Below the pieces are notes generated by a model, which saw nothing but the letters and a program-made list of their open reading frames with translations, had not been told where the DNA came from and did no database searches. Below, in pieces: positions 7,135 through 37,459 of a stretch of 64,000 nt of DNA. Every line of letters starts with the position of its first letter. Positions within the stretch are counted from its first letter, which is position 1. Source of the stretch: Caldilineaceae bacterium (lineage in GTDB: Bacteria; Chloroflexota; Anaerolineae; Caldilineales; Caldilineaceae); contig JADLDO010000032.1 of the NCBI GenBank assembly GCA_020846635.1, positions 62,001 through 126,000 on the forward strand, in the 5' to 3' direction. The position numbers were made by a program, and so were the translations under genes.

Positions 7135-7162
7135 TACAGCCCCCAGGCCAGGCGGCAAGAGG

Positions 7163-8083
7163 TCATTGGCTGCGGACTCCCCAGCGTTGTCCCCAACGGT
7201 GGCATACAAAATCGGTCGCGCCCTGCCAGAGCGCATCGCGGTGCGGGCGCATCGTGCGCCACTTGGGCTTCAAGCTCCAACTGGTCAGTGTGCGTCCGAG
7301 TTGGCTCCAGACAGCCGCCCAGGCAGAAAGCGGCGCGCGATAGATTGACATGAACAAGAGGCGGTTGCGCGTGTTGTAGTATGTCACCTGTGGGCTGGGT
7401 GCATAGTGGCGGCGTACGCCCTTGTGCCAGAGCTTTGCCTGTGGCACATTCACAGCCAGCCATCCGGCTTTGCGCGCCCGAAAACACCATTCAGTCTCTT
7501 CCCAATAATAATAAAAACGCTCATCCAACATGCCCACTTGTTCGATGACCGCGCGACGCACCATGATCGCACACCCTGAAATCCAGTCTACGTGCTGCGG
7601 GCGGACGAACCGGCCTAGATCCAACTCATTCTGCCCCATATGCCACGACTGCCAACTGGCGCTGATGCGACCTCCCGCCGATTGGATCACCTGTGGTTCA
7701 TCGAAGTGATAGACAAGCGGCCCCACAATCCCGACCCTGGCATCTTCCTCACCCTGTGCCACCAGCCGCTCTAGGCAATCGGCTGCTAGTACGGTATCCT
7801 CGTTAAGGATAAAGACCCAGTCGGCATGTTGCGCCAGCGCTGCTTGGATGCCGACATTGTTGTTACCGGCATAGCCAAGATTGCGCGCCAGGCTGATGAC
7901 CTCGACTTCTGGATAGTTGGCGTGTATGGCCTCGACTGAACCATCATGCGAAGCATTGTCCAGGACAATGACGTGATGGTTTGGATAGCGATTGAGCCGG
8001 AGCGAAGCAAGGCAAGCCAACGTATCGTCACGACGATTGGTGTTCAGGATCACGGTAATGATGCGAGGATGTGTCGGTTTCAT
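7163..8083 (-). CDS. Glycosyltransferase family 2 (rhamnosyltransferase-like)
   Basis: A 306-residue GT-A enzyme. It opens with ITVILNTNRRDDTLACLASL. The LDNASHDGSVEAI nucleotide-binding loop and ARNLGYAGNNN are typical of the GT2 subgroup annotated as rhamnosyl or dTDP-sugar transferases. The metal site reads LNEDTVL (a DxD variant), and YYYWEETEWCFRARKAGW carries the catalytic-base region (ExE/W). The ATG at 8083 has a ribosome site AGAGG 8 nt upstream; an in-frame TTG just before it is rejected. It lies between the ligase gene and the epimerase, consistent with use of a sugar made by the latter. Confidence 0.88.
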   Translation of the reverse strand: MKPTHPRIITVILNTNRRDDTLACLASLRLNRYPNHHVIVLDNASHDGSVEAIHANYPEVEVISLARNLGYAGNNNVGIQAALAQHADWVFILNEDTVLAADCLERLVAQGEEDARVGIVGPLVYHFDEPQVIQSAGGRISASWQSWHMGQNELDLGRFVRPQHVDWISGCAIMVRRAVIEQVGMLDERFYYYWEETEWCFRARKAGWLAVNVPQAKLWHKGVRRHYAPSPQVTYYNTRNRLLFMSIYRAPLSAWAAVWSQLGRTLTSWSLKPKWRTMRPHRDALWQGATDFVCHRWGQRWGVRSQ

Positions 8084-8115
8084 CAAGAGAACCTCTGTTA
8101 TTCAAGGTTTGTTGC

Positions 8116-9141
8116 TTAGGCGTTGACCGCAACGGGCTCCACAGCTTTGATAGCCCAACTAGGTGGAAGATTCCTCGTAACCTCGATCTCGCCAAATTCC
8201 TGGCTTTGACGCGCGCCATGCTGCTTGACCCAGGCGGCCATGCGCTGCACGCCATCTTCCAGCGTCCAGGGTGTAGAGTCGCCAAAGACGCGCTGCAACT
8301 TCTCATGGGATGAGTAGGCATTCCAGACTTCGTTGCGCGCATCCAAATGAACAAGGTTAGGCTGCACACCGAGCGCACGCGCAACGGTGAGGGCCATTTC
8401 GTTGACGCTGTAGGGCTGTCCACTGCCGATATTGAAGATCTGGTTGCGCGCTGCCGGAAGCTCAATCGAACGGGCAATGACGGGCGCAACGTCAGCGATA
8501 TAGCTAAAGGCGCGCGTTTGCGAGCCGTCGCCAAAGATGGTCATGGGTTTGCCCTGTAGAATTTGGTTCATAAAAATCCCCACGACATTGCGATACTTGT
8601 CGCCAATATTCTGGCGTTCGCCATAGACATTGTGGGGACGGAAGATAATATAGTCTAGGTCAAACATGTGCTTGCAGGCCTGCAACTCTTGTTCGATGGC
8701 GAGCTTGGCAATGCCGTAGGGATCTTCCGGGTGAGCTGGCGTCTCCTCGTTCATCGGCAGCTCTGGGCTTGCCCCATAGACTGCGATAGATGACGTAAAG
8801 ACAAAGCACTTCACGCCCGTATTGATCGAGGCATTGATCAGGTTGACGCTGCCAATGAGGTTGTTGTTGTAATTAAACCGTTTGATGAAGTGGCTAAGAC
8901 CCTCCGCAGCATAGGCGGCTAGGTGAAAAACGTAGTCGAATTGCTGCTGTTCAAAGAGCCGGTTGACGGCTTCGTGATCATAGATGCTCCCCAGAACAAA
9001 CTCTGCCCCAGGAACCACATTGTCGATAAAGCCACCGCTCAAATCGTCTAGCACAACAACCGTGTGCCCGCGCTGCACAAGCTCTTCGGTGACGTGGGAA
9101 CCGATAAAGCCTGCGCCGCCCGTAACTAGAATCTTGCTCAT
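8116..9141 (-). CDS. NAD-dependent NDP-sugar epimerase/dehydratase (GalE-like SDR)
   Basis: A 341-residue extended short-chain dehydrogenase. The Rossmann motif TGGAGFIG is at residues 7-14, the catalytic Ser region is FTSSIAVYG, and YGIAK holds the Tyr-Lys pair near residue 149. FRPHNVYGERQNIGDKYRNV and FGDGSQTRAFSYIADV are characteristic of UDP-glucose 4-epimerase and related NDP-sugar epimerases or dehydratases. It acts in the cytoplasm to make an activated sugar for the glycosyltransferases around it. The exact sugar cannot be told from sequence alone. It lies between a glycosyltransferase and an acyltransferase of the same strand. Confidence 0.87.
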   Translation of the reverse strand: MSKILVTGGAGFIGSHVTEELVQRGHTVVVLDDLSGGFIDNVVPGAEFVLGSIYDHEAVNRLFEQQQFDYVFHLAAYAAEGLSHFIKRFNYNNNLIGSVNLINASINTGVKCFVFTSSIAVYGASPELPMNEETPAHPEDPYGIAKLAIEQELQACKHMFDLDYIIFRPHNVYGERQNIGDKYRNVVGIFMNQILQGKPMTIFGDGSQTRAFSYIADVAPVIARSIELPAARNQIFNIGSGQPYSVNEMALTVARALGVQPNLVHLDARNEVWNAYSSHEKLQRVFGDSTPWTLEDGVQRMAAWVKQHGARQSQEFGEIEVTRNLPPSWAIKAVEPVAVNA

Positions 9142-9177: not shown

Positions 9178-10287
9178 TTAACCAAAGATATACTGGTAAT
9201 ACCTGCGCGCCGGAGAGCGATTGACAAGTGCCATCAGGAGGAGTGGAACCCCCAGGCCCAGGGCAATCAGGATCGGTTGGTAGAGCACCTGATAGCCGAG
9301 GATCCAGGGTTCAAGCTGGTAGATCAGCTTGGACGCCCACAGCAGAACCATCGTGTGTACCAGGTAGACCCCATAGGAGCGCTTGCCCAACTCACTGAGG
9401 CGGTTTGAAAATGGCAGCGCAAAATCGGCGTATGCGAGAAAGGCAAGGATGCTGACGATGGACAACAGCTCATCCGAGAAGATGCGTGTCCGTGTCAGCC
9501 ATTCCTGACCCGACTGGCCCAGGAGAAATTCCCACTCGAGCATACCGAGGGGAACCAGCATGAGGGCAAGAGGCAGCAAGGCCCATTTGATCTTCGCAAG
9601 CCATTGTTTGAAGGGAACCAGATGGAAACCCACGATGATGCCAAAGCTAAACCAAAACAGAAAACCAGGGAAGGCCCAACTGGGGATTCTCACAAACCAG
9701 TCCACAGGCAAAAGCGATCGGTTTAGAATCTGTTCATAGCGTGACAGTTGCACGTAGACTTGGACCAGCAAAGAGACGATGAGCAAGAGTCGCCAACGTC
9801 GCTTCGCCAGCGGTACCAGAAATGGCGCAAGAAGGTATAACTGGCACACCAGAGGTACATAGTAATAGGCAGAGGTCGCGCCACCTACGGCGAGCAGTTT
9901 CAGATAGCGGAACGGCGCATATTGTATCCCCAGCAGCAAGAAATCGGCGCTAAAGATCGCCAGTGACCAGACGAAGTATGGAATGAGCAGGCTGCCGATG
10001 CGCTTGCTAACCAATCGCCATCCGATGGTCGTGTTGTGATGCCCTGTGGCGATGGCTACGAAAAAGCCGGATACAAAGAGAAAGATCGGCACGCCGGAGG
10101 TGATGATCTGCTCAATCATGCGTAAGGAGTAGTAGGTGGGTGTGCCAAGTTGATCAAAGTTGGGCACAGTCACCGGACGGTATTGGTTTGCCCACCAAAA
10201 CATGGCGACGAAGCCCCAACCGGCGGCGTGGTACAAGATCGCCGCCATAGCAGCCAACCCGTTAAGTTGTAACAGTCGTTTAATCAT
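9178..10287 (-). CDS. Membrane acyltransferase family 3 (OafA-like), paralogue a
   Basis: A 369-residue integral membrane acyltransferase with about 10 hydrophobic helices. The conserved His of the family is at H20 in the first helix (AAILYHAAGWGF). Family members move acyl groups across the membrane onto sugars or lipids. It is a close paralogue of the protein at 13208-14317, sharing the first-helix pattern, LFVSGFFVAIATG and the ending PARRYYQYIFG against PWRGYYRYVFG. The two paralogues bracket the two halogenase genes, which suggests that they accept the halogenase pathway product. That link is inference. No obvious ribosome site precedes the ATG. Confidence 0.85.
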   Translation of the reverse strand: MIKRLLQLNGLAAMAAILYHAAGWGFVAMFWWANQYRPVTVPNFDQLGTPTYYSLRMIEQIITSGVPIFLFVSGFFVAIATGHHNTTIGWRLVSKRIGSLLIPYFVWSLAIFSADFLLLGIQYAPFRYLKLLAVGGATSAYYYVPLVCQLYLLAPFLVPLAKRRWRLLLIVSLLVQVYVQLSRYEQILNRSLLPVDWFVRIPSWAFPGFLFWFSFGIIVGFHLVPFKQWLAKIKWALLPLALMLVPLGMLEWEFLLGQSGQEWLTRTRIFSDELLSIVSILAFLAYADFALPFSNRLSELGKRSYGVYLVHTMVLLWASKLIYQLEPWILGYQVLYQPILIALGLGVPLLLMALVNRSPARRYYQYIFG

Positions 10288-10327
10288 AGGAGAGAGCGAC
10301 TCGCTGAACTATCTGTGGATCGTATAC

Positions 10328-10380
10328 CGTGGCCTTAACCCTCCCGGAAGCTCCAAGCTTCCGGGAGGGTTAAGGCCACG
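10328..10380. repeat. Perfect 25-bp inverted repeat with 3-nt loop
   Basis: Left arm 10328-10352 and right arm 10356-10380 are exact reverse complements around the loop CCA, giving a very stable hairpin on either strand. It sits in the gap between halogenase a and acyltransferase a, both minus strand. Neither side carries a clear T-tract, so a simple intrinsic terminator is not well supported, although a polarity-attenuating or mRNA-stabilising hairpin is possible. It could also be a small palindromic mobile or REP-like element. Confidence 0.9.
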
Positions 10381-10438
10381 ATACTTTGTTTACAGTGTGT
10401 TATGTGTCCGTATGCGTGAAGCGGTGAGTGTTGGATGG

Positions 10439-11701
10439 CTAGTCGATGGGAACCGCCGCGAGATGCGCCTTAAAGAGATGGTGGTCGGAGGATTCTACGG
10501 CCTTGACGTAATCGCGCATCGCCTGCAATACAGGGGCTTCTTCTCGATCAAAGACCAACCCTTGCAGGAGCCGTTTGATCTGTTGGCGATGATCCTTCGA
10601 CTGGATGAAGTGCGTAAAGAGCGGCAGCAGCTTATAGTAGAGCCGGATAAACTCATACCAGATTTCAACGCCGCTGCGGAGTCGCTTCTCATAGGGCATC
10701 AGGGTGGCTTCGCTGAAGTCATCCAGCTCGAATCCATTGCGAATGACTTCGGATGCCATGCGCGCCCCGAAACAGGCAACGCTGACACCCGATGAAAAGA
10801 TTGGGTCAACGAAGCGCGCCGCGTCCCCGACGAGTAGATAGCCATTGCCCACGAATCTTTCCATGCAATAGCTATAGTCGCCTTCGGTCTTAAACTCGTT
10901 GACGCGGGTGGCGCTGCTCATTGCCTGCACAAGGTCTGGATTTGTCTGCGTATATTTGTTGAAGTAACTCTCCAAATCCAGCTTCGCCTGTTTGAAGATC
11001 TCCCGTTCTGCCACGACACCTACCGAGGTGATCTCGTCTGTAATGGGAATCTGCCAGACCCAGCCTCTCTCAATGGGGAGGAAGTAGATGTGAATCCAGT
11101 CGGCAGTGATCCCACTTCCCCGGTCAAGATCCTTATACCAGGCGTGTACGGCATATTGGTTGAAGATGGGGTCTTTCAGCTTGAGTTTTAGCTGATTGCC
11201 GAGGATCGTTTGACGACCACTGGCATCGACCACCATCTTGCAGGGCAGGTCTACTTCCTGATCGCCCATCTTGACGCGGACGCCGCAGGCCTGGTCATTC
11301 TCAAACAAAACCTTTTGCACACGAACGCCCTGGTAGATCTTGGAGCCAAGCGACTCGGCATGTTTGAGCAGCAAGAGATCGAACTTGCTGCGATCCACAT
11401 GATAGGTGTAGTTTTGGTCGATGCCTTCTTCGGGAAAGGGGTCAAAATCGATCCCGAATTCTCTGCTGGTCGGCGCATGCCATGAGGCTCCATATTTCCT
11501 GACAAACCCTTCCCTTTCCATCGTAGGCAGGAACCCAATTTCCTTGAATACTCTGGTGGTAGAGGTGACAAGAGACTCCCCAACGTGCGCGCGGGGAAAA
11601 ATAGACCCCTCGATGATAAGGTTGCTGATACCTGCCATAGATAGATAACAACCCAACACCGATCCTGCAGGCCCGCCGCCAATGATAATTACGTCGTTCA
11701 C
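10439..11701 (-). CDS. PltA-type flavin-dependent halogenase, copy a
   Basis: A 420-residue FADH2-dependent halogenase. It has the FAD motif GGGPAG, FPRAHVGES, the lysine motif FVRKYGASW (K69), WVWQIP (the WxWxIP halogenase signature) and FVDPIFSSG (the Fx.Px.Sx.G signature). Recalled PltA sequence aligns along the whole length, including the HVDRSKFD and WYEFIRLYYKLLPLFT regions. PltA halogenates pyrrolyl groups held on a carrier protein, and the same role is inferred here because the carrier, ligase and dehydrogenase are adjacent. The GTG start at 11701 is chosen because AAGGAG lies 6 nt upstream and it matches the paralogue start (MNDVIIIGGG). An ATG 28 codons upstream gives an unsupported extension. 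A separate flavin reductase is needed but is not seen in the window. Confidence 0.88.
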   Translation of the reverse strand: MNDVIIIGGGPAGSVLGCYLSMAGISNLIIEGSIFPRAHVGESLVTSTTRVFKEIGFLPTMEREGFVRKYGASWHAPTSREFGIDFDPFPEEGIDQNYTYHVDRSKFDLLLLKHAESLGSKIYQGVRVQKVLFENDQACGVRVKMGDQEVDLPCKMVVDASGRQTILGNQLKLKLKDPIFNQYAVHAWYKDLDRGSGITADWIHIYFLPIERGWVWQIPITDEITSVGVVAEREIFKQAKLDLESYFNKYTQTNPDLVQAMSSATRVNEFKTEGDYSYCMERFVGNGYLLVGDAARFVDPIFSSGVSVACFGARMASEVIRNGFELDDFSEATLMPYEKRLRSGVEIWYEFIRLYYKLLPLFTHFIQSKDHRQQIKRLLQGLVFDREEAPVLQAMRDYVKAVESSDHHLFKAHLAAVPID

Positions 11702-11836
11702 AGCGATCTCCTTGTGTGGCATAGGTTCTTTGCCAAGTGATGATTTGTTCGTGGTAAGGGTATGCAATCCAACGGCAGGAGGCATTGATCTCTGCTTTTT
11801 GCTGGCCGTAGGCGAGATGAATCAATCGCAATCAGG

Positions 11837-13099
11837 TTAATCAATTGCAATCGAGGTCAGTTGCGACTTAAAGAGATGGTTATCGGAGGCTTCAACCGCC
11901 TGCACATAGTTGCGCATGGCTTGCAGCACAGGAACTTCGCTGCGGTCGTACACCTCGCCTTGCAGCAGTTGTAGAACTTGCAGCCGGTGTTCCTTCGACT
12001 GGATGAAATGGGTAAAGAGTGGGAGCAGCTTGTAGTAGAGCCGGATAAACTCATACCAGATGGCAACGCCCTTGCGGGATCGTTCTTCATACGGGACAAA
12101 GGTCGCCGCGCTGAAGTCGCCCGTTTCAAATGCCTGGCGGATTTGGGTGGCGGAGTATTTCGCACCGTAGAGGGCAATGCTCACACCGGAAGAAAAGATC
12201 GGATCGACGAAGCGAGCCGCGTCACCTATCAGGATGTAGCCGTTGCCCACGAACTTTTCCATGCAATAGCTGTAATCCCCTTCGGACTTAAATTCGTTGA
12301 TACGCACAGCAGGCTGCATGGCGCGTGCCAAGTCTGGATTGGTTTGGGTGTACTTTTCAAAATAACTCTCCACATCCAGTTTGGCTTCTCGGAAGACATC
12401 CCGTTCGGCAACGACGCCGATCGAGGTAATCTCGTCGTTGATCGGAATCTGCCACACCCAGCCCCGCTCCACGGGCAGGAAGTAGACATGAATAAAATCT
12501 GCCGTGTGACCACTGCCTCTGTCTACATTCTTGAACCAGGCATGGACAGCATACTGGTCAAAGATGGGGTCTTTCTGCTTGAGCTTGAGTTGATTGCCGA
12601 GGATGGTGCTGCGACCGCTGGCATCGACCACCAGCTTGCAGGGGAGATCGACTTCCGAATCGCCAATCTTGACCCTGACCCCGCGCGCCCAGTCGTCCTC
12701 AAACAGGACCTTTTGGACACGCACGCCCTGGTAAACCTTCGAGCCAAGTTCCTCTGCCCGCTTCAGCAGCAATTGGTCAAACTTGCTGCGGTCAACATGA
12801 TAGGTGTAATCCTGCTCGATCCCTGCCTGGGGAAATTCGCCGAACTCGATGGCAAACTCTTTGCCTTTGGGTGCGTGCCAGGAGGCCCCATACTTGCGTA
12901 CGAATCCCTCGCGCTCCATGATGGGCAGCATCCCAATTTCCTTCAGGACACGAGTAGACGATGTGACCATAGATTCGCCGACGTGTGCACGAGGGAAGAT
13001 AGCGCCTTCGATAATCAGGTTGCTGATTCCCATCATGGAGAGATAGCAGCCCAACGAAGAGCCTGCAGGCCCCCCACCAATGATGATGACATCGTTCAT
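11837..13099 (-). CDS. PltA-type flavin-dependent halogenase, copy b
   Basis: A 420-residue paralogue of the next downstream gene, of identical length and very similar along its whole span. Motifs by residue: GGGPAG 8-13, FPRAHVGES 35-43, K69 in FVRKYGASW, WVWQIP 214-219, IGDAARFVDPIFSSG 291-305. The retained Lys and WxWxIP argue for real halogenation rather than a plain monooxygenase or geranylgeranyl-reductase role. A ribosome site AGGAGA precedes the ATG. Two copies could mean two halogenation positions, two substrates or simple gene dosage. PltA itself adds two chlorines, so two enzymes are not strictly required for dihalogenation. The halide preference cannot be read from the sequence. 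Confidence 0.9.
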   Translation of the reverse strand: MNDVIIIGGGPAGSSLGCYLSMMGISNLIIEGAIFPRAHVGESMVTSSTRVLKEIGMLPIMEREGFVRKYGASWHAPKGKEFAIEFGEFPQAGIEQDYTYHVDRSKFDQLLLKRAEELGSKVYQGVRVQKVLFEDDWARGVRVKIGDSEVDLPCKLVVDASGRSTILGNQLKLKQKDPIFDQYAVHAWFKNVDRGSGHTADFIHVYFLPVERGWVWQIPINDEITSIGVVAERDVFREAKLDVESYFEKYTQTNPDLARAMQPAVRINEFKSEGDYSYCMEKFVGNGYILIGDAARFVDPIFSSGVSIALYGAKYSATQIRQAFETGDFSAATFVPYEERSRKGVAIWYEFIRLYYKLLPLFTHFIQSKEHRLQVLQLLQGEVYDRSEVPVLQAMRNYVQAVEASDNHLFKSQLTSIAID

Positions 13100-13207
13100 G
13101 AAGTGATCTCCTAAATCATCCTAAAACCAGAATATGAGCAACAAAAAGGGGGCAGCGACGCAATACGGTGGCTAACCTGCCTGCGGTGTGGCGGCTGCCC
13201 GAAGAAA

Positions 13208-14317
13208 TCAGCCAAAAACATAGCGATAATAGCCGCGCCAGGGCGAACGGCTGACCAGCGCCATCAAGAGCAATGGCACACCCAAACCGGCGAAGAAAAG
13301 GAGTGGTTGCAGAACAATCTGATAGCCAAGCAGCGCGGGTGCAAAGCGGTATATAACTCTTGCGACCACTTCCATCACGGGTGAATGGATCAGATAGATG
13401 CCATAGGTCTTGCCGTTTAGATCACCCAGCATGCCAGAGAAAGGAAGGCGCAGGGTGTCAAACGCCAGGAAGCAGAGAATGACGGTCAGTGACAGAGCCG
13501 TGTCAATCAGCGTTTCACGGTGGGCCAGCCAGGTTTGCCCGGAAAGCTCAATGATCTTTTCCCATTCGATCACCCCCGCGACAAACAGGAGAACAGTCAA
13601 GGCAAGTAGATGCCAGCGGAAGCGGTGGAGCGGCTGCCTGAACTCGGCAAGGTGAAAACCGGCAACAATGCCAAAGGCAAACCAAAAGATGCGTGCCGGA
13701 AAGAACCATTTCGGTACAACGTCCACAAGTGGCTCCAGCACCCCAATGTTGATCCCCAACAGGGCAGGATAGTAGAGAAGCTGAACAGTTAGTTGGATCA
13801 GGGCAGACCCCACCAAAAGCGCGATCCACCTGGTTTTGGCCCAATGCACCAGCAAGGGAGAAATCAGGTAGAGCGAGATGAGCAGCGGCACATAGTAGTA
13901 GGCTGGATTTGTGCGACCCGTCAGCAGAGCCTCTGCATATCCGGCGACTGAGAGCGTTCTCCCCTCGATGAACAGCTTGCCCCAGAGAAGAACCGACCAG
14001 AGCACATAAGGAATCAAGAGGCTCTTGGTACGGGCCGCGATGATGCTCCAGCTTATGGTGGTGCGGCTGCGCCCTGTGGCAACCGCGATGAAGTAGCCGG
14101 AGACAAAGAGAAAGGCCGGGATGGCGAAGATGGGCAGTTGTTCAATCACGCGTAGGGCGTAGTATGAAACACTCCCCATTTGCGAATAATCGGGTACCGT
14201 GACGGCGAGGTAGCGATTGGCCCAGGCAAACATGGCGATAAATCCCCAGCCTGCCGAATGGAACAAGAGCATACCCAAGAGCGCAAGCTCGTTGATGCCT
14301 AACAGTTTCTTGATCAT
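13208..14317 (-). CDS. Membrane acyltransferase family 3 (OafA-like), paralogue b
   Basis: A 369-residue polytopic membrane protein, paralogous and equal in length to the acyltransferase at 9178. The family His is H20 (GMLLFHSAGWGF), and LFVSGYFIAVATGRSRT and YGIYLIHSPVMEV follow the same pattern. Its place between the carrier-protein gene and halogenase b puts it inside the halopyrrole cassette. It is a candidate for transferring the carrier-bound or CoA-bound acyl group to a sugar hydroxyl. It could equally be an ordinary O-acetyltransferase, since the family mostly uses acetyl-CoA. Confidence 0.85.
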   Translation of the reverse strand: MIKKLLGINELALLGMLLFHSAGWGFIAMFAWANRYLAVTVPDYSQMGSVSYYALRVIEQLPIFAIPAFLFVSGYFIAVATGRSRTTISWSIIAARTKSLLIPYVLWSVLLWGKLFIEGRTLSVAGYAEALLTGRTNPAYYYVPLLISLYLISPLLVHWAKTRWIALLVGSALIQLTVQLLYYPALLGINIGVLEPLVDVVPKWFFPARIFWFAFGIVAGFHLAEFRQPLHRFRWHLLALTVLLFVAGVIEWEKIIELSGQTWLAHRETLIDTALSLTVILCFLAFDTLRLPFSGMLGDLNGKTYGIYLIHSPVMEVVARVIYRFAPALLGYQIVLQPLLFFAGLGVPLLLMALVSRSPWRGYYRYVFG

Positions 14318-14418
14318 AGACCCACCGACCGTACGCTCCCTCTCTCAACATGCGCGGTTAATTTCTACTGACAATCCCTGCTTGTACTCTTTGCGACCAA
14401 GATGTGCCTGGGAGGCAA

Positions 14419-14673
14419 TTAACCAGCCGCCTGCGGTTGCAGCGTGCTCAAGTAGTTCGCCATTGCGCCAATGCTGTAGAAGTTCTCATAGACAACATCC
14501 TCATCGGCGACGCGCACCTTGAACCTCTCTTCGATAAAGGCCACAAGTTGCAGGATGCCCAGCGAGTCGAGAATCCCACTTGCCAACAGATCGTCGGTGC
14601 TGTTCAACTGGCTCTGACGACCCCTTGTGATCTCGCTGGCGATGTACTCTTTCAAAATCGGTTCCGCGTTCAT
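14419..14673 (-). CDS. Stand-alone acyl/peptidyl carrier protein (PltL/PigG-like)
   Basis: An 84-residue four-helix carrier protein. The motif GILDSLGILQLVAFIEE contains the phosphopantetheine Ser (S37 with this start) followed by helix II, and ERFKVRVADEDVVYENF is the usual helix III region. The ATG at 14673 is chosen over a GTG three codons upstream because AAGGAG lies 8 nt before it. It is preceded on the strand by the adenylating enzyme and followed by acyltransferase b. By analogy with pyoluteorin and prodigiosin pathways it would hold L-proline, then pyrrole-2-carboxylate, then the halogenated pyrrole. A DltC-like role in D-alanylation is the main alternative. No dedicated phosphopantetheinyl transferase is seen. 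Confidence 0.87.
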   Translation of the reverse strand: MNAEPILKEYIASEITRGRQSQLNSTDDLLASGILDSLGILQLVAFIEERFKVRVADEDVVYENFYSIGAMANYLSTLQPQAAG

Positions 14674-14769
14674 GGTGTTCACTCCTTGTTGATGGGTAGA
14701 ATGATTCTCGTCGGGTTATTCGGTTGGGTTGTTCGGTTGTGTGATATAGGCTGCGCGATACGCGTGGTG

Positions 14770-16347
14770 CTACGCGGGTACGGGAACAGTCTGTGATTGC
14801 AGCGATCTGCGGTCAATCTTACCTGTCGAGGTTCTGGGAAACTCGTTGAGAATGTGAATCTCCGCCGGTAGTGCGTAGGCAGGCAGGCGGTTGGCGAGAT
14901 GTTGGATCAAGAGTTCGGCGGTGAGCGTCATGCCTTCAATCGCCGTCACTGCCGCCTTGATCATGTGGCTTTCGTGGTCGTCGAGTACGGCATAGACCGC
15001 AGCTTCCTGCACCCAGCTATGCGCCAGCAGTATTACTTCGACCTCATCCAGCTCGACGCGATAGCCGCGGGTCTTGATCTGCCGATCTTTGCGCCCCAAA
15101 TACTTATAGTCGCCGTCGGGCAGCAATTGTACGAGATCGCCTGTACGGTAATAGGGACTTTCACCGTGAGAGACTACATGGCTGCGCAAGAAGGCCCGTT
15201 CCGTCAGGTCAACACGCCCCCAATAGCCGCGCATGACCACCGCGCCACGAATCAGCAATTCGCCAACTTCGCCCGCTGCCACGGGTTGGTCATCGCCGTT
15301 GACAACCAGATCGTCCACGTTGCCACAGGGGCGACCGATAGGAATCGGCTCGTCGGAATCTGGTGAGAGCGTTGGCACATGGTAATAGGTGCAGACGTTG
15401 GTCTCTGTGGGGCCGTAAATGTTGCTAAAGCGAGCATCGGGCAGTTGTGCCATCAGCTCGCGCAGATGCTTGGTTGGAAATGGCTCCCCGGCAAATAGAA
15501 TCCAGCGCAGCGAACTCAGGTCGCGCGCCGCCAGCCCCCCCTTTTGCAGCAGTTGAATGAGGGCAAAGGGAACGGAATACCAGATGGTGAGCCGTTCCTG
15601 CTCGATCAGCTTGGCGACGCTTGCCGGAAACTTGACGACCCCTTCGGGGATGAGCACAACCGTAGCGCCTGCCAGGGCAGTGGCAAACAAGTCAAAGGTG
15701 GAGAGATCAAAATGAAACGGCGCATGGTTGCTCACGCGGTCGCCACTGTGCAAAGCATAGGCCTCGGCTGCCCAAAGTGGAAAGCTCAAGCCGCTGCGGT
15801 GCGTGTGCATGATCCCTTTGGGGTTGCCCGTTGAGCCGGAGGTATACAGGATATAGGCTAGATCCATCTCTGTTAGGTGCAAGGGGGATGGTCCAACCGG
15901 CAGCGCGTTGACCTCCTCCCAAGAGATGCAGCGCAGCGGCAAATCTGCACGCTCCGGCACACCCACGACACATTCCAGCGGGGATGGACTCGCGACCAAC
16001 GGCTGTAGGCTCTCCTCCTTAGTGACGGACGAGATGAGAAAGCGGACGCCACAATCCTGAATGACATAGCGCAGCCGCTCAATCGGGGCCATCGGGTCGA
16101 GCGGCACATAGGCCCCACCCGCTTTCATGATGCCGTAGATCGCCACGACAGACTCCAGGCTTTTGTTCATGTAGATGCCCACGCGGTCGCCACGTCCAAT
16201 GCCTTGCTCTGTCAAGCAGGACGCAAGGTGATTGACCCGCTGCAGCAACTGGGCATAGGTGAGACTTTGTCCGGCGCAGCGGACAGCGGTCTGATCGGGA
16301 AAGCGTTCTGCTGCGTTTTCAATGGCGTGATGCAGGAGATAAAGCAT
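14770..16347 (-). CDS. Stand-alone adenylating enzyme, probable prolyl-AMP ligase (PltF/PigI-like)
   Basis: A 525-residue ANL-superfamily adenylation domain. Core motifs by residue: YTSGSTGNPKG 168-178, FHFDLSTFDL 211-220, YGPTETN 311-317, YRTGDL 400-405, GRKDRQIKTRGYR 418-430 and PRTSTGKIDR with K510. SNHAPFHFDLS matches my recollection of stand-alone L-prolyl-AMP ligases. It would activate an amino acid with ATP and load the carrier protein encoded next. The ATG at 16347 is chosen because the longer reading enters the antiporter gene with non-family sequence; a weak ribosome site AGAGG is present. The dehydrogenase and halogenases nearby make proline the best-supported substrate, but the specificity pocket was not decoded. 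Confidence 0.86.
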   Translation of the reverse strand: MLYLLHHAIENAAERFPDQTAVRCAGQSLTYAQLLQRVNHLASCLTEQGIGRGDRVGIYMNKSLESVVAIYGIMKAGGAYVPLDPMAPIERLRYVIQDCGVRFLISSVTKEESLQPLVASPSPLECVVGVPERADLPLRCISWEEVNALPVGPSPLHLTEMDLAYILYTSGSTGNPKGIMHTHRSGLSFPLWAAEAYALHSGDRVSNHAPFHFDLSTFDLFATALAGATVVLIPEGVVKFPASVAKLIEQERLTIWYSVPFALIQLLQKGGLAARDLSSLRWILFAGEPFPTKHLRELMAQLPDARFSNIYGPTETNVCTYYHVPTLSPDSDEPIPIGRPCGNVDDLVVNGDDQPVAAGEVGELLIRGAVVMRGYWGRVDLTERAFLRSHVVSHGESPYYRTGDLVQLLPDGDYKYLGRKDRQIKTRGYRVELDEVEVILLAHSWVQEAAVYAVLDDHESHMIKAAVTAIEGMTLTAELLIQHLANRLPAYALPAEIHILNEFPRTSTGKIDRRSLQSQTVPVPA

Positions 16348-16356
16348 ATCAATCTT

Positions 16357-16389
16357 GCCTCTGTTTAAGCCTCTGTTTAAGCCTCTGTT
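16357..16389. repeat. Tandem 12-bp repeat, nearly three copies, carrying the ribosome site
   Basis: The unit GCCTCTGTTTAA occurs at 16357-16368 and 16369-16380, with a partial copy at 16381-16389. On the transcribed strand each copy offers an AGAGG ribosome-binding-like core just upstream of the ligase start at 16347. Copy number could change by slippage and alter translation, but no such effect is shown. Confidence 0.85.
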
Positions 16390-16406
16390 GAGGAGGAACG
16401 AGCACC

Positions 16407-17696
16407 CTATTCCAGCGTGGGGCTCTGGGGAACGGCAACCGCCAGGGGCGATGTGGGCAGTTGGTGTTGGAGCCACTGCCTGTAGATGAGACCAAAGATC
16501 GGTGAGGTCATCAGCGTGGTCGTAATCGCCATGATGACCAGAATTGTAAAGAGAGTGGGGGTGATGATGCCGCGCTGCAAGCCGATGTTCAAGAGAATCA
16601 ATTCCATCATGCCGCGTGCATTCATCAGCGTACCAATGGCGATTGCCTCTCGATTGGATTCTCCATTGAGGCGAGCCGCCAACCAGCAAGCCACACCTTT
16701 GCCAAAACAGGCGACGAAGACAATCAGCAGGGTGACGCCCAACAGAGAAGGTGAAATGACAAGATTGAGTTGTGTGTTAAGACCAGAATAGACAAAGAAG
16801 AGAGGCAGCAGGAAGTTTGTGATCACCGGCTCCAGAGAGCGCTGCAGCTCACGAGTCACAACGCCGCGCGGCATGGCGAGCCCCAGGATGAAGCCGCCAA
16901 AGACCGCATGGATACCGACGAAATCGGTGTACCACGCGGCCAACATGAGCAGCATCAGTACAAAAGATAACATGGGGCCGCTGAGAACCTGGCGGCGTTC
17001 TGCCCTGGCGCCCAGCCGCGCCAGCAGGCGCTTGCCACCCCACAACACGACAACGGTGTATATCGCCCCACCGGCGATTGCCAGGATGGCAATGGTTGTA
17101 TTTCCGCTAAAGCTTGCCAGGACAATCGCCAGAATACACCATGCGGCTGCGTCGTCAATGGCCCCGGCTGCTAATGCCAGTGTGCCGAGGGATGTGCCTG
17201 CCAGGCCGCGTTCGTAAATGATGCGCGCAAGCATTGGAAAGGCGGTAATGGACATGGAGGCTGCGATGAACAGCATGCCTTCCCAGCCCGCCACTTCTGG
17301 AGCAAAGAATGTAGCATCATTCATAAAGAGAAGCGCAAGCAAGCAGCCGAGAGTAAAAGGCACGATAATGCCCGTAATCGAAACGGATGCTGCGCTGCGT
17401 AAGCGGCGTTGGATTACATCCGTATTGAATTCAATCCCCACCAGGAACATGTAGATCACGACGCCAACTTGGCTGACAGTGTAGATCAGGCTTTTTGACT
17501 CTGCCGGAAAGAGATGAGCCTGGAGATCCGGAAAGAATAACCCCAAGAGTGATGGCCCCATCAGCACCCCTGCAATCATCTCGCCAACGACTTGGGGTTG
17601 CCCGATCCATTTGGCGGCAATCCCCACCACCCGGATCACAGCCAAGATCACGGCTAGCTGCAAGTAGAAGAGCAGTGACAATTCGACGTTAGACAT
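16407..17696 (-). CDS. CPA2-family cation/proton antiporter (Kef-type)
   Basis: A 429-residue membrane protein with about 12-13 hydrophobic helices. QPQVVGEMIAGVLMGPSLLG is the conserved N-terminal CPA2 signature, VGIEFNTD follows, and ALAAGAIDDAAAWCILA contains the acidic pair expected in the ion-binding helix. No C-terminal NAD-binding (TrkA-N) domain is present. It exchanges Na+ or K+ for H+ across the membrane. It lies between the dehydrogenase and ligase genes of the halopyrrole cassette. Antiporters occur in some antibiotic gene clusters, perhaps for self-protection or ion balance, but its purpose here is unknown. Confidence 0.87.
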   Translation of the reverse strand: MSNVELSLLFYLQLAVILAVIRVVGIAAKWIGQPQVVGEMIAGVLMGPSLLGLFFPDLQAHLFPAESKSLIYTVSQVGVVIYMFLVGIEFNTDVIQRRLRSAASVSITGIIVPFTLGCLLALLFMNDATFFAPEVAGWEGMLFIAASMSITAFPMLARIIYERGLAGTSLGTLALAAGAIDDAAAWCILAIVLASFSGNTTIAILAIAGGAIYTVVVLWGGKRLLARLGARAERRQVLSGPMLSFVLMLLMLAAWYTDFVGIHAVFGGFILGLAMPRGVVTRELQRSLEPVITNFLLPLFFVYSGLNTQLNLVISPSLLGVTLLIVFVACFGKGVACWLAARLNGESNREAIAIGTLMNARGMMELILLNIGLQRGIITPTLFTILVIMAITTTLMTSPIFGLIYRQWLQHQLPTSPLAVAVPQSPTLE

Positions 17697-17748
17697 AGGT
17701 TCCTACCTGATCCCCCTGGTTATTTTCATGATCCTATTGACGTTACAG

Positions 17749-18894
17749 TTACAGCCCCATCATCCGCGCCGCGATGTTGCGTTGAATGTCCGATGTCCCG
17801 GAGTAGATCATGCCGCCAACCGCATCGCGCAAGTCTCGTTCTATGCCAAACTCGGTCATGTAGCCATAGCCGCCATGCACCTTGATGGCGTCGAGGCCGG
17901 ATTGCACAAAACATTCGCTTAGATAGAGCTTGACCAGGGCGGCTTCCATCGTGGCTGGTTTGCCTGCCATCTTGAGCCACGCTACTTTGTAGAGTAATAG
18001 GCGTGCCGTTTCGAGGCGCAGCTTCATATCGACGATGCGGTTGGCAACTGACTGGAACTTGCTGATCGATTGGCCGAACTGCTTGCGTTCGCGTGCATAG
18101 GTCACGCATGTGTCCAGTTGTCGCTCCATCGCACCCAAATGGCTGGCGAGGATACAACTGCGCTCCCACTCCATCGAGCTATTGAAGATTTTGGCCCCGA
18201 TCCCTTCCGGCCCTAAGCGGTTTTCGGCGGGGATGAAACAGTCCTGAAAGATTAACTCGGCCATTGGCGACGTTCGCAGCCCCATCTTGTCGATGTCGCG
18301 GCTGATGGTGAAGCCCGGTGTCTCCTGATCGACCAAAAAGGCTGTGACGCCCCACATGCCTTTGGCTGGATCGACCGTGGCAAAGACCAACGCCATGTCG
18401 GCAATGGGGGCATTGGTGACAAATGTTTTGGTGCCACTGAGGATGTATCCCCCTCGGCATCGTTCGGCATGGGTATGTAAGCTGTAAGCATCAGAACCTG
18501 AGTCCGGCTCTGACATGCCATGTGCGCCGATCATGTAGCCACTGCACATGGCGGGCAGATATTTCTGCTTTTGTTCTTCTGTGCCAAAGGTCAGGATCGG
18601 CATCTGGACGCTTAACAACTGGGCGTTGATGGCAAAGATCAGCCCGTTGTCACGACAGCCATAGCCAAGCCCCTCCATAATGAGCATGGTTGTGAGAATG
18701 TCCGCGCCACTGCCACCATATTCTTCTGGAATCGGCAGCCCTTGAATTCCGAACTGGGCACACTTTTTCCAGTTTTCAAGGCAAAGTTCACCCTGTCGAT
18801 CGCGATCGATCAAGCCATCATTCAATTCGCGTGTCGCAAATTCAATGACAGCACGTTTATAGGCAAGTTGTTCGTCTGTCCAGGAAAAATCCAT
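17749..18894 (-). CDS. Probable L-prolyl-carrier-protein dehydrogenase (PltE/PigA-like acyl-CoA dehydrogenase)
   Basis: A 381-residue flavoprotein of the acyl-CoA dehydrogenase family. The segments CRDNGLIFAINAQL, GGYILSGTKTFVTNAPIAD, SMEWERSCI and FQSVANRIVDMKLRLE closely match recalled PigA sequence. The C-terminal site reads YSGT (residues 364-367) instead of the YEGT that carries the catalytic Glu in medium-chain acyl-CoA dehydrogenases. E244 in MEWER is the likely base instead, as in isovaleryl-CoA and prolyl-carrier dehydrogenases. The expected reaction is oxidation of prolyl-S-carrier to pyrrolyl-2-carboxyl-S-carrier. The ATG at 18894 starts MDFSWTDEQ, the family start; a TTG further upstream is rejected. 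It is the first gene of the cassette on this strand. Confidence 0.87.
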   Translation of the reverse strand: MDFSWTDEQLAYKRAVIEFATRELNDGLIDRDRQGELCLENWKKCAQFGIQGLPIPEEYGGSGADILTTMLIMEGLGYGCRDNGLIFAINAQLLSVQMPILTFGTEEQKQKYLPAMCSGYMIGAHGMSEPDSGSDAYSLHTHAERCRGGYILSGTKTFVTNAPIADMALVFATVDPAKGMWGVTAFLVDQETPGFTISRDIDKMGLRTSPMAELIFQDCFIPAENRLGPEGIGAKIFNSSMEWERSCILASHLGAMERQLDTCVTYARERKQFGQSISKFQSVANRIVDMKLRLETARLLLYKVAWLKMAGKPATMEAALVKLYLSECFVQSGLDAIKVHGGYGYMTEFGIERDLRDAVGGMIYSGTSDIQRNIAARMMGL

Positions 18895-18968: not shown

Positions 18969-20213
18969 CTAGAAAGCAATTTCCGGTTTACGGCGATTGC
19001 CAAAACTGCGCGTCGCTCTGGGGAGTGTCGTTAGATGATTCTCAAGTCGTATCGCAGCGTCCTCCCAACTCCAATTTCGTTCGACCTGCTGGCGTCCATT
19101 CCGTCCAAGCCTGGCTGCCAGGGCTGGATTGCTCAACAACTGTTGAACGGCTGCCCCAAATTTATGGGGATCGCGCTCGGTCAACAGTCCAGTCTTGCCA
19201 TGTGTAACCGTCTCGCGAACACCCCCTTCGGCAACGGCCACAATTGGGGTTCCACAGGCCATCGATTCCAGCGCAACGAGGCCGAAGGGCTCGCGTACGG
19301 GAGCATAGAGCGTGATCTGGGCGCGGTTGTAGAGGTCTACCAGGAATTCATCGCTGATATTGTCCTCAAGGCATAGATCGACGCCGCAGCTCGCCGCCAT
19401 CCCTGTCAGATAGGTGCGCTCCGCCGGATCCTGGAAGTTACTGGCGATGACAAGAGGTGGCCTTTCGCCTGCCGGGATCGTGGCGAGCGCACTGATGAGA
19501 AAGTCAAAGCCCTTGAGCGGCGTCAGCGACCCTACAGACAGGACGAAATCTTCACGCTCTCTGCGGCGCGGCTGAAACCAGGTTGCGTCCACGCCCAAGT
19601 AACTCACATGGGCATCAACCCCATAGATGCGGTATATCTCTTTGCGGGTGTATTCGGAGTTGACCAACACGCGGTCGGCGCTCTGAATGTTGCCCCGATC
19701 CATGTAGCTGAGAATACCGAAATAGAGCGGCGGCAGCGGGTCTACCAGATCAATCGCCGCGCGCAGACCAGCATGAACTTCATAGGGCCGCACTGGCATC
19801 GTTTCGTACAAGTGCCGCAGTGACTCCGGGCAGTAGTAGACCTTCGGAACGGCCTGGATGTGCTGCAAGATGGAGGGCGCTTTTTCATATTGGCAGGGAT
19901 GGACAAAGACCAGGTCGTAACCTTCCTGTTCGATCTCCTCTGCAATGGTTTTGGATAGCTGGCGCAGGCGTAGTAAGTCCCCCAGGCGTAAAGCCTGATT
20001 GATGCGGCCCCAGGGCGAGGACAACAGCGCTGCGGGGCTAAAGGTATAGACCCTATGCTGCGCCGCGAAGGGGCGAATGTCGGCAAAGTCATGCGATGCA
20101 GACGTGAGTGTGTAGACATCCATGTGGTGCGTCATTGCCAACTGGCGCATCAACTCGTGCAGTGCCCGCTTAGCGCCGCCCGAAGGCAGGTTGTGATAAA
20201 TGGCTATCTTCAT
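18969..20213 (-). CDS. Glycosyltransferase family 4
   Basis: A 414-residue GT-B enzyme. It begins MKIAIYHNLPSGGAKRALHE, with the GGAKR acceptor-side loop. The C-terminal donor-binding half has LSVGSLTPLKGFDFLISAL and EPFGLVALESMACGTPIVA, containing the E-x7-E motif of retaining GT4 enzymes. The longest possible reading adds 75 residues without family similarity that run into the next gene's territory, so the ATG at 20213 is used. It is the most downstream of a run of four glycosyltransferases (18969-23646) just upstream of the dehydrogenase gene. Confidence 0.88.
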   Translation of the reverse strand: MKIAIYHNLPSGGAKRALHELMRQLAMTHHMDVYTLTSASHDFADIRPFAAQHRVYTFSPAALLSSPWGRINQALRLGDLLRLRQLSKTIAEEIEQEGYDLVFVHPCQYEKAPSILQHIQAVPKVYYCPESLRHLYETMPVRPYEVHAGLRAAIDLVDPLPPLYFGILSYMDRGNIQSADRVLVNSEYTRKEIYRIYGVDAHVSYLGVDATWFQPRRREREDFVLSVGSLTPLKGFDFLISALATIPAGERPPLVIASNFQDPAERTYLTGMAASCGVDLCLEDNISDEFLVDLYNRAQITLYAPVREPFGLVALESMACGTPIVAVAEGGVRETVTHGKTGLLTERDPHKFGAAVQQLLSNPALAARLGRNGRQQVERNWSWEDAAIRLENHLTTLPRATRSFGNRRKPEIAF

Positions 20214-20275
20214 CGATCCATCACCCATTCTCGACTGTTGAACTGGCTGAGTACCACGATAGGGACTGCGTAGTG

Positions 20276-21376
20276 CTAGGCAAGCTTGCCAAATGGTGAA
20301 CTGTGCGAGACGTCGGGGGTGAGCCATTGTTTGAGATTGATAGCCGACTTGCATAGGTTCGGGCTGATTCGGTGCAATGTGTACAGCAAGTTTGTGTGAG
20401 GATTCAGGGGGCTCAAGGCGCGCGCCTGTGTGAGCCACTTGGCGATATAGCGCCGCTCTATTGCCGTCTGTGTACTGGATTCGCCCAGGTTTTTGCTTGC
20501 CATCAGGCGCAGCAGCCGGGCGCGCTGCTGCTTAGGCAGGCTTGTGAACTCAGGCCAACCGCTGATCTCATCTTGAAGCGGGTAGAAGCCCCGGCGCAGA
20601 TTGACCAGCAGATCATAAAAGACTGCCACGCGCGTTTGCGGCGCGCAGTTGGAGAAGTTCTGAAGTTTGATCGCCTTTTGGCGGCATTGTGCGAGCGAAT
20701 CGGCGCGCTTATGCAGCGTGGTACGAAGCGTAATGTTCGTCTGGTGAACGCGATAGAGGCAGGTGCGTTGGTCGAGATAGCCAAAGCGGGTAGCCTCTGC
20801 ACAGCGGGTGAAGAAATCCCAATCCGGGCCGATGACAATAGCAGGGTCGAAGCGCAGTTGGCGTTGTGCAATGGCCTCTTGGCGCAGAACGACACAGGTC
20901 GGTGGGCCAAAAACATCCGATGCCAGGACAAGTTCTTCAAAGAGCCACCCCTGGAAGGGGCCACGGCGCTGGCTGGAAAGGAGTTCTGTGGGGCTCCCCT
21001 CGGAGTCGCAGTAATGACCGTCGGTATAGACGCCGTCAACGCTTGGCGTGTGTTGCAGATAGGCAACCGTGGCCGCGAGATGGTGGGGCAGGAATAAATC
21101 ATCTGCATCCAGAAAAGCCACAAACTCCCCTCGCGCCAGCTCCAGCGCGCGGTTGCGCGCCACCGATTCGCCGCCATTGGCCTGGTGAACCAGCCGGATG
21201 CGCGGGTCAACATAGGCGGCTGCGATCTCTGCCGTTTGGTCTGTAGAGCCATCATTGACGATGATGAGTTCCCAGGCCGCGTAGCGTTGGGCCAGCACGC
21301 TTTCGATGGCCTGCCCGATGTACGGCGCTGCGTTATAGGCGGGCATCATCACCGTGACCAAGCCAGGTTGTGTCAT
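20276..21376 (-). CDS. Glycosyltransferase family 2
   Basis: A 366-residue GT-A enzyme. VTVMMPAYNAAPYIGQAIES, IIVNDGSTDQTAEIA, RNRALELARGEFVAFLDADD (metal DxD) and IGPDWDFFTRCAE cover the family landmarks. The C-terminal third is alpha-helical with no named domain. It transfers a sugar with inversion at the cytoplasmic face. It sits 3 bases after the next GT4 gene, so the two are surely co-transcribed. Confidence 0.88.
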   Translation of the reverse strand: MTQPGLVTVMMPAYNAAPYIGQAIESVLAQRYAAWELIIVNDGSTDQTAEIAAAYVDPRIRLVHQANGGESVARNRALELARGEFVAFLDADDLFLPHHLAATVAYLQHTPSVDGVYTDGHYCDSEGSPTELLSSQRRGPFQGWLFEELVLASDVFGPPTCVVLRQEAIAQRQLRFDPAIVIGPDWDFFTRCAEATRFGYLDQRTCLYRVHQTNITLRTTLHKRADSLAQCRQKAIKLQNFSNCAPQTRVAVFYDLLVNLRRGFYPLQDEISGWPEFTSLPKQQRARLLRLMASKNLGESSTQTAIERRYIAKWLTQARALSPLNPHTNLLYTLHRISPNLCKSAINLKQWLTPDVSHSSPFGKLA

Positions 21377-24414: not shown

Positions 24415-24491
24415 CCGTCCCTTTTCACCGTATCCGTTTGCTATCAATTTGCTATCAGTTTTGCTTGTCGGGTTTGACTGATCGAGTTTGG

Positions 24492-26357: not shown

Positions 26358-26359
26358 GG

Positions 26360-30136: not shown

Positions 30137-30211
30137 CTGACCACCCATCTGATTGAAAGAATACGCGAACGTCTTGTAAAACAAGCCTCTCTACTCCAAG
30201 AGGGAAATACT

Positions 30212-37438: not shown

Positions 37439-37459
37439 TGTAAGAGTTGGCCTTGTGCT

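Follow-up and report, generated by a model that had tools for sequence, protein, structure and literature searches.

Locus and gene content

The window, a stretch of 64,000 nucleotides, contains at positions 9178-18894 a predicted halopyrrole cassette whose genes are all intact and all lie on the minus strand (Table 1). An earlier note, made from the letters alone, had claimed a ligase, a carrier protein, a dehydrogenase and two halogenases; profile searches confirmed this gene set, and the carrier DSL serine, the dehydrogenase base E244 and the Ser in its YxGT motif (Ser365) were all borne out. The five genes had been described as adjacent. All are there, but two AT3 membrane acyltransferase genes and a CPA2 antiporter gene, overlooked at the time, are interleaved with them. 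The antiporter was not matched at the equivalent place in other glycan-type loci and, among the loci mapped, lies inside the cassette solely in the present genome.

The claimed lack of NRPS or PKS genes fits what was seen of the window, but not the 252-kb contig, which carries condensation and ketosynthase domains at contig positions 588-19689, on the opposite strand and about 50 kb from the cassette. An initiating sugar transferase sits between this PKS/NRPS cluster and the cassette. Also on this contig, 8 kb ahead of the start of the window, is a gene for a third halogenase, RadH/CmlS-like and more distantly related. Pfam returned no match for two secreted-looking paralogues at 27602-30184, nor for three further secreted-looking proteins of relatives.

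Table 1. Predicted genes of the cassette and the surrounding sugar locus (window coordinates)
Feature	Position	Strand	Evidence
O-antigen ligase/polymerase (Wzy_C), syntenic	5614..7236	-	Wzy_C 59.2 bits
GT2 glycosyltransferase, syntenic	7163..8086	-	Glycos_transf_2 75.5 bits
NAD-dependent sugar epimerase/dehydratase	8116..9141	-	Epimerase 193.9 bits; syntenic in relatives (71-77%)
AT3b membrane acyltransferase	9178..10287	-	Acyl_transf_3 (PF01757) 72.4 bits, cut-off 31
PltA-type halogenase 2	10439..11785	-	Trp_halogenase 98.5 bits
PltA-type flavin-dependent halogenase 1	11837..13099	-	Trp_halogenase 102.7 bits
AT3a membrane acyltransferase	13208..14317	-	Acyl_transf_3 (PF01757) 81.3 bits, cut-off 31
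Carrier protein with phosphopantetheine serine	14419..14682	-	PP-binding 30.5 bits; ...GILDSLGIL...
Stand-alone prolyl-carrier ligase (adenylation enzyme), PltF-like pocket	14770..16347	-	AMP-binding 323.9 bits
CPA2-type cation/proton antiporter	16407..17696	-	Na_H_Exchanger 185.8 bits
PigA/AnaB-type prolyl-carrier-protein dehydrogenase (prolyl to pyrrolyl thioester, predicted)	17749..18894	-	NCBIfam PigA, PDB, tree
GT4 glycosyltransferase	18969..20438	-	Glycos_transf_1 105.7 bits; adjoins or near dehydrogenase in relatives
GT2 glycosyltransferase, syntenic	20276..21376	-	Glycos_transf_2 118.7 bits
GT4 glycosyltransferase, syntenic	21380..22627	-	Glyco_trans_1_4 80.4 bits
GT4-type glycosyltransferase, syntenic	22624..23646	-	Glyco_trans_1_4 49.9 bits
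Sulfotransferase (start uncertain)	23674..24516	-	Sulfotransfer_3 35.5 bits
Asparagine-synthetase-like amidotransferase of glycan locus	24492..26429	-	Asn_synthase 103.3 bits for 24492-26357
Wzt/Wzm-type ABC polysaccharide exporter, same superlocus	36209..38281	-	ABC_tran + Wzt_C, ABC2_membrane

Predicted carrier-loading and tailoring enzymes

PltF (6o6e, 350 bits) was the top-scoring stand-alone ligase in the PDB for the window ligase. Whether the pocket would point to another substrate had been raised as a check; the specificity code, DLFYLAIVCK, was found to share 8 of 10 residues with that of PltF (DLLYLALVCK), with positions placed by motif from PheA numbering, and the pocket is thus nearly the prolyl pocket of PltF. 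Nine further ligases from the same kind of locus carry DL[F/L]YLALVC. Against the DltA profile the window ligase scored 285 bits, below the cut-off of 476. The ligase tree had 34 rows, consisting of proteins of 450-620 aa and one shorter protein (L045), with 4 actinobacterial loci included. The cassette carriers of relatives that were looked at bear their serine as DSL or NSL.

The dehydrogenase was scored by NCBIfam PigA at 462 bits (E 1.5e-138), under the cut-off of 500, so it is not called PigA itself. Its closest solved structures are both prolyl-carrier dehydrogenases: 4irn, a prolyl-ACP dehydrogenase, scored 457 bits, and 5zw0 scored 342 bits. In a tree of 44 rows, 4 actinobacterial loci among them, five ordinary acyl-CoA dehydrogenases separate at 100/97 and the window enzyme falls with its AnaB/PltE kin, ruling out the ordinary fatty acyl-CoA dehydrogenase that the earlier note had named as a possible outcome. 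By sequence the enzyme belongs to the PigA/AnaB/PltE clade, with the predicted base at the E244 position.

Halogenase 1 matched ChlB4 (408 bits), Mpy16 (404 bits) and PltA (394 bits) in the PDB, and GxGxxG, WxWxIP and GFxxKxGA (the catalytic Lys region) were all found in it. Halogenase 2 is a recent tandem copy (77% identical; sister pair at 100/98), whose actual start may lie some 28 codons further in. The halogenase tree contained 51 rows; from loci L059-L120, mostly actinobacterial, all 8 with a dehydrogenase nearby were kept, together with every sixth of the 54 rows without one (9). In this midpoint-rooted tree the expected relation to PltA held as to type and motifs, but the cassette halogenases form their own clade (100/100), mostly of Chloroflexota rows in this sample, beside and not inside the PltA/Mpy16/ChlB4 clade. 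This placement counts against the explanation favoured below. The substrate of ChlB4 is a different aromatic acyl group, and since the PltA-type family also includes this enzyme, sequence does not fix the halogenase substrate. The cassette enzymes are thus PltA-type by family and motifs, with pyrrolyl-S-carrier as their putative substrate.

Variant membrane acyltransferases

R-x10-H in TM1 and RxxR are termed "absolutely conserved" in AT3s in a passage of a published account (PMC9833829). AT3a has Asn9 in place of the canonical TM1 Arg and retains His20, and AT3b carries the same Arg-to-Asn change. Among cassette AT3s the catalytic His was present in 17/17, the TM1 Arg in 0/17 and the second Arg of RxxR in 0/17 (Lys in 3); this count covers 17 of the 20 AT3a/b-type tree proteins, setting aside two fragments (L044 and L045) and the first AT3 in L041. 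In ordinary AT3s from the class the TM1 Arg is present in 14/17, the remainder being two not covered there and one cassette-like protein. As judged from their sequences, the cassette AT3s are variant AT3s, which match the family profile but lack an Arg in each of the two "absolutely conserved" motifs. Loss of two proposed CoA-binding arginines with retention of the His would fit direct transfer from a carrier protein, by analogy with teichoic-acid D-alanylation.

The AT3a structure model reached a pLDDT of 85.5 and a pTM of 0.87. Foldseek gave 343 matches to it at E up to 10, none at E <=0.001, and searching the PDB with the AT3a sequence produced a single match, put down to chance. Three of the four PF01757 matches of the genome itself lie inside the present superlocus. 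Among nine chosen genomes, a cassette-type AT3 was found in all five with the glycan module and in none of the four without it. Among the stretches retrieved for 17 other class loci with the dehydrogenase, several of them shorter than 12 kb, that of L164 alone contained such an AT3.

Recurrence in relatives

The cassette is common to twelve Chloroflexota loci, the present one included. Its recurrence with AT3 neighbours or sugar-gene flanks in 11 other loci rules out a chance gene cluster. Contigs matched to one another by their equal lengths were counted once (L162, L163, L165 and L168 taken as L046, L043, L074 and L042; L221 and L222 likewise as L048 and L051). Sugar genes were observed on the flanks in 10/10 loci whose contigs show flanks, the cassette contigs of L044 and L045 (<5 kb) showing none, and the AT3 pair in 8/8 loci whose contig spans ligase to epimerase. 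Wzt/Wzm exporter matches lie close to the module in G437, G602 and G729.

A halogenase is linked to the cassette in 10 of the 12 loci. The remaining two, G738 and G602, are close kin; a lack of the enzyme was ruled out, since each has a halogenase on a different contig (723 and 715 bits), beside which no recognised pathway genes were found. Co-inheritance of the five genes, on which the earlier note had made its reading depend, therefore holds in part: the ligase, the carrier and the dehydrogenase are kept together with the AT3s, the halogenases only partly so. Records named CFX1 and DTUCFX11 presumably come from bioreactor or sludge sources, settings in which surface polymers matter for floc structure.

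Proposed pathway and alternative explanations

Our preferred reading, which we consider rather probable, is that the cassette makes a halopyrrole-2-carboxyl group on a dedicated carrier and that the two neighbouring AT3s attach it to the exported glycan of the locus. The ligase would adenylate L-proline and load the carrier, the dehydrogenase would convert the prolyl to the pyrrolyl thioester, and the PltA-type halogenases would add one or two halogen atoms, presumably chlorine or bromine, to the ring. AT3a and AT3b would then accept the acyl group directly from the carrier at the cytoplasmic side and transfer it through the membrane onto hydroxyl (or amino) groups of sugars in an acceptor that is probably the glycan exported by the surrounding locus. 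This proposal is favoured on account of the enzyme families, the PltF-like pocket, the dehydrogenase grouping, the distribution of the AT3 pair, the TM1 Arg loss, and the exporter, initiating transferase and Wzy nearby; catalytic residues and a conserved layout with sugar genes were likewise read from the sequences. Both the AT3 pair and the conservation of the sugar genes strengthen the case for the glycan destination that the earlier note suggested. That no thioesterase was found in ten proteins scanned also counts in its favour. Counting against it are the separate halogenase clade, the NRPS/PKS cluster elsewhere on this contig, the two genomes in which the module is retained but no halogenase is linked to it, a cassette-type AT3 beside NRPS genes in G579, and the 8.6% contamination of this draft assembly. 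In addition, those AT3s with a tested donor that are cited in a review use acyl-CoA, and the review argues against an ACP donor (PMC9558356).

Halopyrrolyl groups could instead serve as starter units in the synthesis of a secreted small molecule, for example on the PKS/NRPS at the contig start, with the sugar genes as mere neighbours. Besides these condensation and ketosynthase domains, the dehydrogenase-ligase-carrier trio of other class members lies beside NRPS genes (L164, L171-L174) or, in L155, beside putative PKS genes, and the ligase code in L164 and L155 is that of the glycan type. The L171-L174 ligases, however, carry a different code, and the PKS/NRPS cluster of the present contig is distant, oppositely oriented and past the initiating sugar transferase. 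In G437, G602, G718 and G729 (39 to 66 kb mapped), moreover, sugar genes and the AT3 pair are always there and the only adenylation domains are stand-alone ligases, the search having covered adenylation domains alone. We regard this explanation as unlikely. The pyrrolyl or halopyrrolyl group might also go, as in aminocoumarins, onto a small glycoside or glycolipid and not a polymer. There is precedent in clorobiocin, where an L-proline-derived pyrrole-2-carboxyl is moved to a sugar 3'-OH (PMC11218499). That transfer depends on CloN7 (same passage), whereas the acyltransferases here are membrane AT3s; the WbaP-like initiating transferase, Wzy_C and Wzm/Wzt exporter of the locus, each also near the module in part of the relatives mapped that far, point to an undecaprenyl-linked polymer and make a small acceptor quite unlikely.

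Surface-sugar PF01757 proteins are mostly described, in part of the same review on AT3s, as acyl-CoA-fed O-acetylases (PMC9558356), and the cassette AT3s might be acetyl-CoA glycan acetylases unrelated to the carrier, the halopyrrole leaving by another route. The uniform absence of both arginines, the interleaving of the AT3 genes with those of the cassette and the lack of a cassette-type AT3 in the four chosen relatives without the module argue against this, and we consider it improbable. Returning to transfer from carrier to glycan, a stronger form is held more tentatively: an Anaerolineae glycan coat may bear halopyrrole-2-carboxyl esters, and the AT3s of the locus may be the first of their fold to use a carrier-protein donor instead of CoA, constituting a second, non-MBOAT Dlt-like transmembrane acylation.

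Comparison with known systems

Every enzyme type is already known; the destination is not. Among the matches listed in the literature, no report was found of a halogenated bacterial polysaccharide or of pyrrole on O-antigen, and according to a 2010 review (PMC2866472) there had never been a report of halogenated polysaccharides in brown algae. If the proposal is true, a halogenated aromatic borne by a polymer would take halogenase chemistry beyond small metabolites and onto the cell surface, AT3 use of carrier-bound donors would become a testable question, and a Dlt-like AT3 route could supply the surface with aromatic groups tailored by enzymes.

Prolyl ligase, carrier and prolyl-carrier dehydrogenase form a known transferable three-gene subcluster, as described in part of one study (PMC6395733). 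The clorobiocin, pyoluteorin and prodigiosin pyrrole subclusters (CloN3-N5, PltE/F/L and PigA/I/G) share these three enzymes with the cassette, which instead forms part of a polysaccharide locus, accompanied by two AT3s and with no assembly line beside it. The pyrrolyl-carrier halogenases PltA and Mpy16 are of the same type and motifs, the cassette enzymes forming a separate clade. In clorobiocin (CloN1, CloN2, CloN7) a carrier-bound pyrrole-2-carboxyl likewise passes to a sugar hydroxyl; there, the acyltransferase is of a soluble type and the acceptor a small molecule, unlike the membrane AT3s and probable exported glycan here. The AT3 O-acylases OafB and OatA share PF01757 and the R-x10-H His with the cassette AT3s, which lack the TM1 Arg and second RxxR Arg and probably take a carrier-bound donor. 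Teichoic-acid D-alanylation by Dlt combines an amino-acid ligase (DltA), a carrier protein (DltC), a membrane acyltransferase (DltB) and a surface polymer. The cassette is not Dlt, as its transferases are PF01757 and not MBOAT DltB and its ligase falls below the DltA cut-off, but it may work like Dlt, following the same logic with tailoring on the carrier preceding transfer.

Cassette layout and genomic context

The earlier note had proposed a cassette converting proline to a carrier-bound halopyrrole, and its genes were found; its list had missed, however, the AT3 proteins (PF01757 membrane acyltransferases AT3a and AT3b), which are the most telling part of the cassette. From 27532 down to 5614, the genes lie on the strand of the cassette and either overlap or are no more than 151 bases apart; this stretch is therefore likely a single transcription unit. 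Among the loci with the same layout among sugar genes (glycan-type loci), a CPA2 antiporter within the cassette was observed in this genome only. CPA2 genes also adjoin PltA-type halogenases in L042/L168, L123 and L126, three loci with a different context, and the transporter may be connected with halogenases. Several of the loci compared encode secreted-looking proteins, possibly extracellular partners of the AT3s; a Pfam scan of those tabulated gave no match.

Coordinates of features in the window and in related contig stretches
Feature	Location	Strand	Content
Cassette	window 9178-18894	minus	In transcriptional order: dehydrogenase, CPA2 antiporter, ligase, carrier protein, AT3a, halogenase 1, halogenase 2, AT3b
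AT3b	window 9178-10287	minus	
AT3a	window 13208-14317	minus	
CPA2 antiporter	window 16407-17696	minus	
Neighbours of cassette	window 27532-5614	minus	Glycosyltransferases, sulfotransferase, asparagine-synthetase-like protein, epimerase, Wzy_C protein
Secreted-looking proteins	window 27602-30184; L074 4730-5737; L206 4479-5408		
Second module, window's genome	L008 10410-19084 (contig C32 52410-61084, shortly ahead of the window)		Carrier protein, ligase, amidotransferase, NAD-synthase-like enzyme, AT3c, sulfotransferase, RadH/CmlS-like halogenase
Hybrid NRPS/PKS genes	contig C32 1-24500 (L219, L009)	plus	
Solitary PltA-type halogenases	L221 9312-10622; L222 9176-10477		

Conservation of the cassette

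The same kind of layout was observed in twelve loci: the window, those of genomes G437 (L153, L154), G695 (L158), G738 (L160), G602 (L161), G718 (L046, L162), G729 (L043, L163) and G547 (L074, L165), and loci L047, L041, L044 and L045. Five of these contigs are cut, starting within the ligase (L041, L044) or ending within a halogenase (G695, G547) or an AT3 (L044, L045). Sugar genes flank the cassette in 10 of the 12, the cut contigs L044 and L045 showing none. The dehydrogenase is present in all ten loci with that stretch in view, the AT3 pair in all eight whose contigs reach the epimerase, and a linked halogenase in 10/12. In the close relatives G738 and G602 the halogenase lies alone on another contig; misbinning is possible, yet two bins agree. 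The dehydrogenase was found at E 1e-100 or better in 24 of 396 genomes of the class sample (8 of the 24 being of glycan type) and in 4 of 46 of the order sample, and reached 411 bits in 8 of 400 of the phylum sample. G434, from the window's own family, has a related sugar locus (GT4b, 52%; Wzy-like, 43%) with otherwise different genes, no pyrrole module in view there and no cassette-type AT3 in the genome.

The main worry is that the cassette may be tied to a PKS/NRPS cluster rather than to the sugar genes, given that hybrid NRPS/PKS genes occur on the same contig. Relatives, however, retain the module together with sugar genes, and their mapped stretches around it contain no NRPS-type adenylation domains. 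AT3s of this type are also linked to such genes outside glycan loci: in G579 (L207) a dehydrogenase, a ligase, a distant halogenase, a carrier and one cassette-type AT3 all adjoin NRPS genes. The reading preferred here is that AT3a and AT3b would transfer a carrier-bound halopyrrole-2-carboxyl group onto an exported glycan.

Predicted substrates of the ligase, dehydrogenase and halogenases

In a PDB sequence search, PltF (6o6e, 350 bits) was the top stand-alone ligase for the cassette ligase; LgrA (479 bits, two adenylation domains) and the long peptide synthetase 8xjz (373 bits over two stretches) score higher, neither score being split by domain. At ten pocket positions, numbered as in PheA and placed by motif, the window ligase reads DLFYLAIVCK and PltF DLLYLALVCK. 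Eight other glycan-type ligases carry DLFYLALVC(K), and the L160 ligase has the code of PltF. Many ligases outside glycan loci, including those of L155 and L164, share the glycan-type code, whereas those adjoining NRPS genes in L171-L174 (D[MQ]FY[LT]GVQCK) and L053 (DQFYIGCQCK) differ from it, which suggests that these dehydrogenase-ligase-carrier trios may act on another cyclic amino acid.

The dehydrogenase scored 462 bits against the PigA model, below the cut-off of 500, and 457 bits against AnaB. Scores in the 400 phylum genomes form a group of at least 411 bits, the next value being 296; scores of 349 to 401 bits also occur in the class sample, in other kinds of loci. All ten glycan-type dehydrogenases carry E as the base residue and have S within YxGT; among 12 ordinary enzymes compared, five have E at the base position and seven have E in YxGT.

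Halogenase 1 scored 394-408 bits against ChlB4, Mpy16 and PltA, and is 77% identical to halogenase 2, with which it forms a recent tandem pair (support 100/98). The pair belongs to a clade (100/100) made up of enzymes from Chloroflexota and a small number of other bacteria; with midpoint rooting, this clade lies next to the one containing PltA, Mpy16, ChlB4 and actinobacterial enzymes. Separate pairs in G437 (98/95) and L041 (100/100) indicate that duplication occurred more than once. Judged by sequence, both halogenases are of the right family; family alone does not fix pyrrole as the substrate, which is inferred from the neighbouring dehydrogenase. PltA-type halogenases away from any pyrrole cassette stand alone in L221 and L222, whose genomes have the glycan module elsewhere; in L052 and L054 they are accompanied by another halogenase-like gene and a carrier protein.

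Second carrier module

The locus seems to combine two acylation modules built around carrier proteins, with a different AT3 type in each. The second, comprising a carrier protein, AMP ligase, amidotransferase, NAD-synthase-like enzyme and third AT3 (AT3c), is found in G437, G602 (carrier out of view), G718 and G729 as well as in the window's genome, where its ligase is ligase_PEP_1-like (481 bits, below the cut-off of 592). A halogenase adjoining this module, RadH/CmlS-like, was seen in the window's genome only. The AT3a/b and AT3c types are split in the tree at 100/100. Among these four relatives, stretches around the module contain a Wzm/Wzt exporter in G437, G602 and G729, and a WbaP-like initiating transferase in G437, G718 and G729.

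Acyl donor of the cassette AT3s

Among the literature matches listed, with most subscription papers outside coverage, none described a bacterial polysaccharide that is halogenated or acylated with pyrrole, or an AT3 fed by a carrier. According to two papers, AT3 proteins are thought to admit acyl-CoA to a pore and to depend on two motifs, R-x10-H in TM1 and RxxR in TM3 (PMC9833829; PMC12423673). Across 17 cassette AT3s, drawn from ten loci (L164 and nine of glycan type), Asn (16) or Leu (1) takes the place of the TM1 Arg, and the His is kept in all; the first Arg of RxxR is kept in 17/17, whereas the second position has S, N, K, D or Y in 17/17 (K in three). AT3c proteins have Ser (4/5) or Arg (1/5) at the TM1 position, and the first RxxR Arg is gone in all five. 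Of 17 comparison AT3s from 41 class genomes, the window genome's own three apart, 14 have the TM1 Arg, two lack coverage there and one has Met; this last (L200) is a cassette-like AT3, 36% to AT3a, that adjoins second-module enzymes. The second RxxR Arg is present in 15/17. L206 (G459) likewise encodes a cassette-like AT3 from which this Arg of TM1 is missing; AsnB2 and NAD-synthase-like genes lie nearby, and no dehydrogenase is in view.

A role in CoA binding has been proposed for the missing arginines, so this loss in the cassette AT3s fits a putative donor bound to the phosphopantetheine of a carrier protein. For AT3s tested so far, a review prefers CoA over ACP as the donor (PMC9558356).
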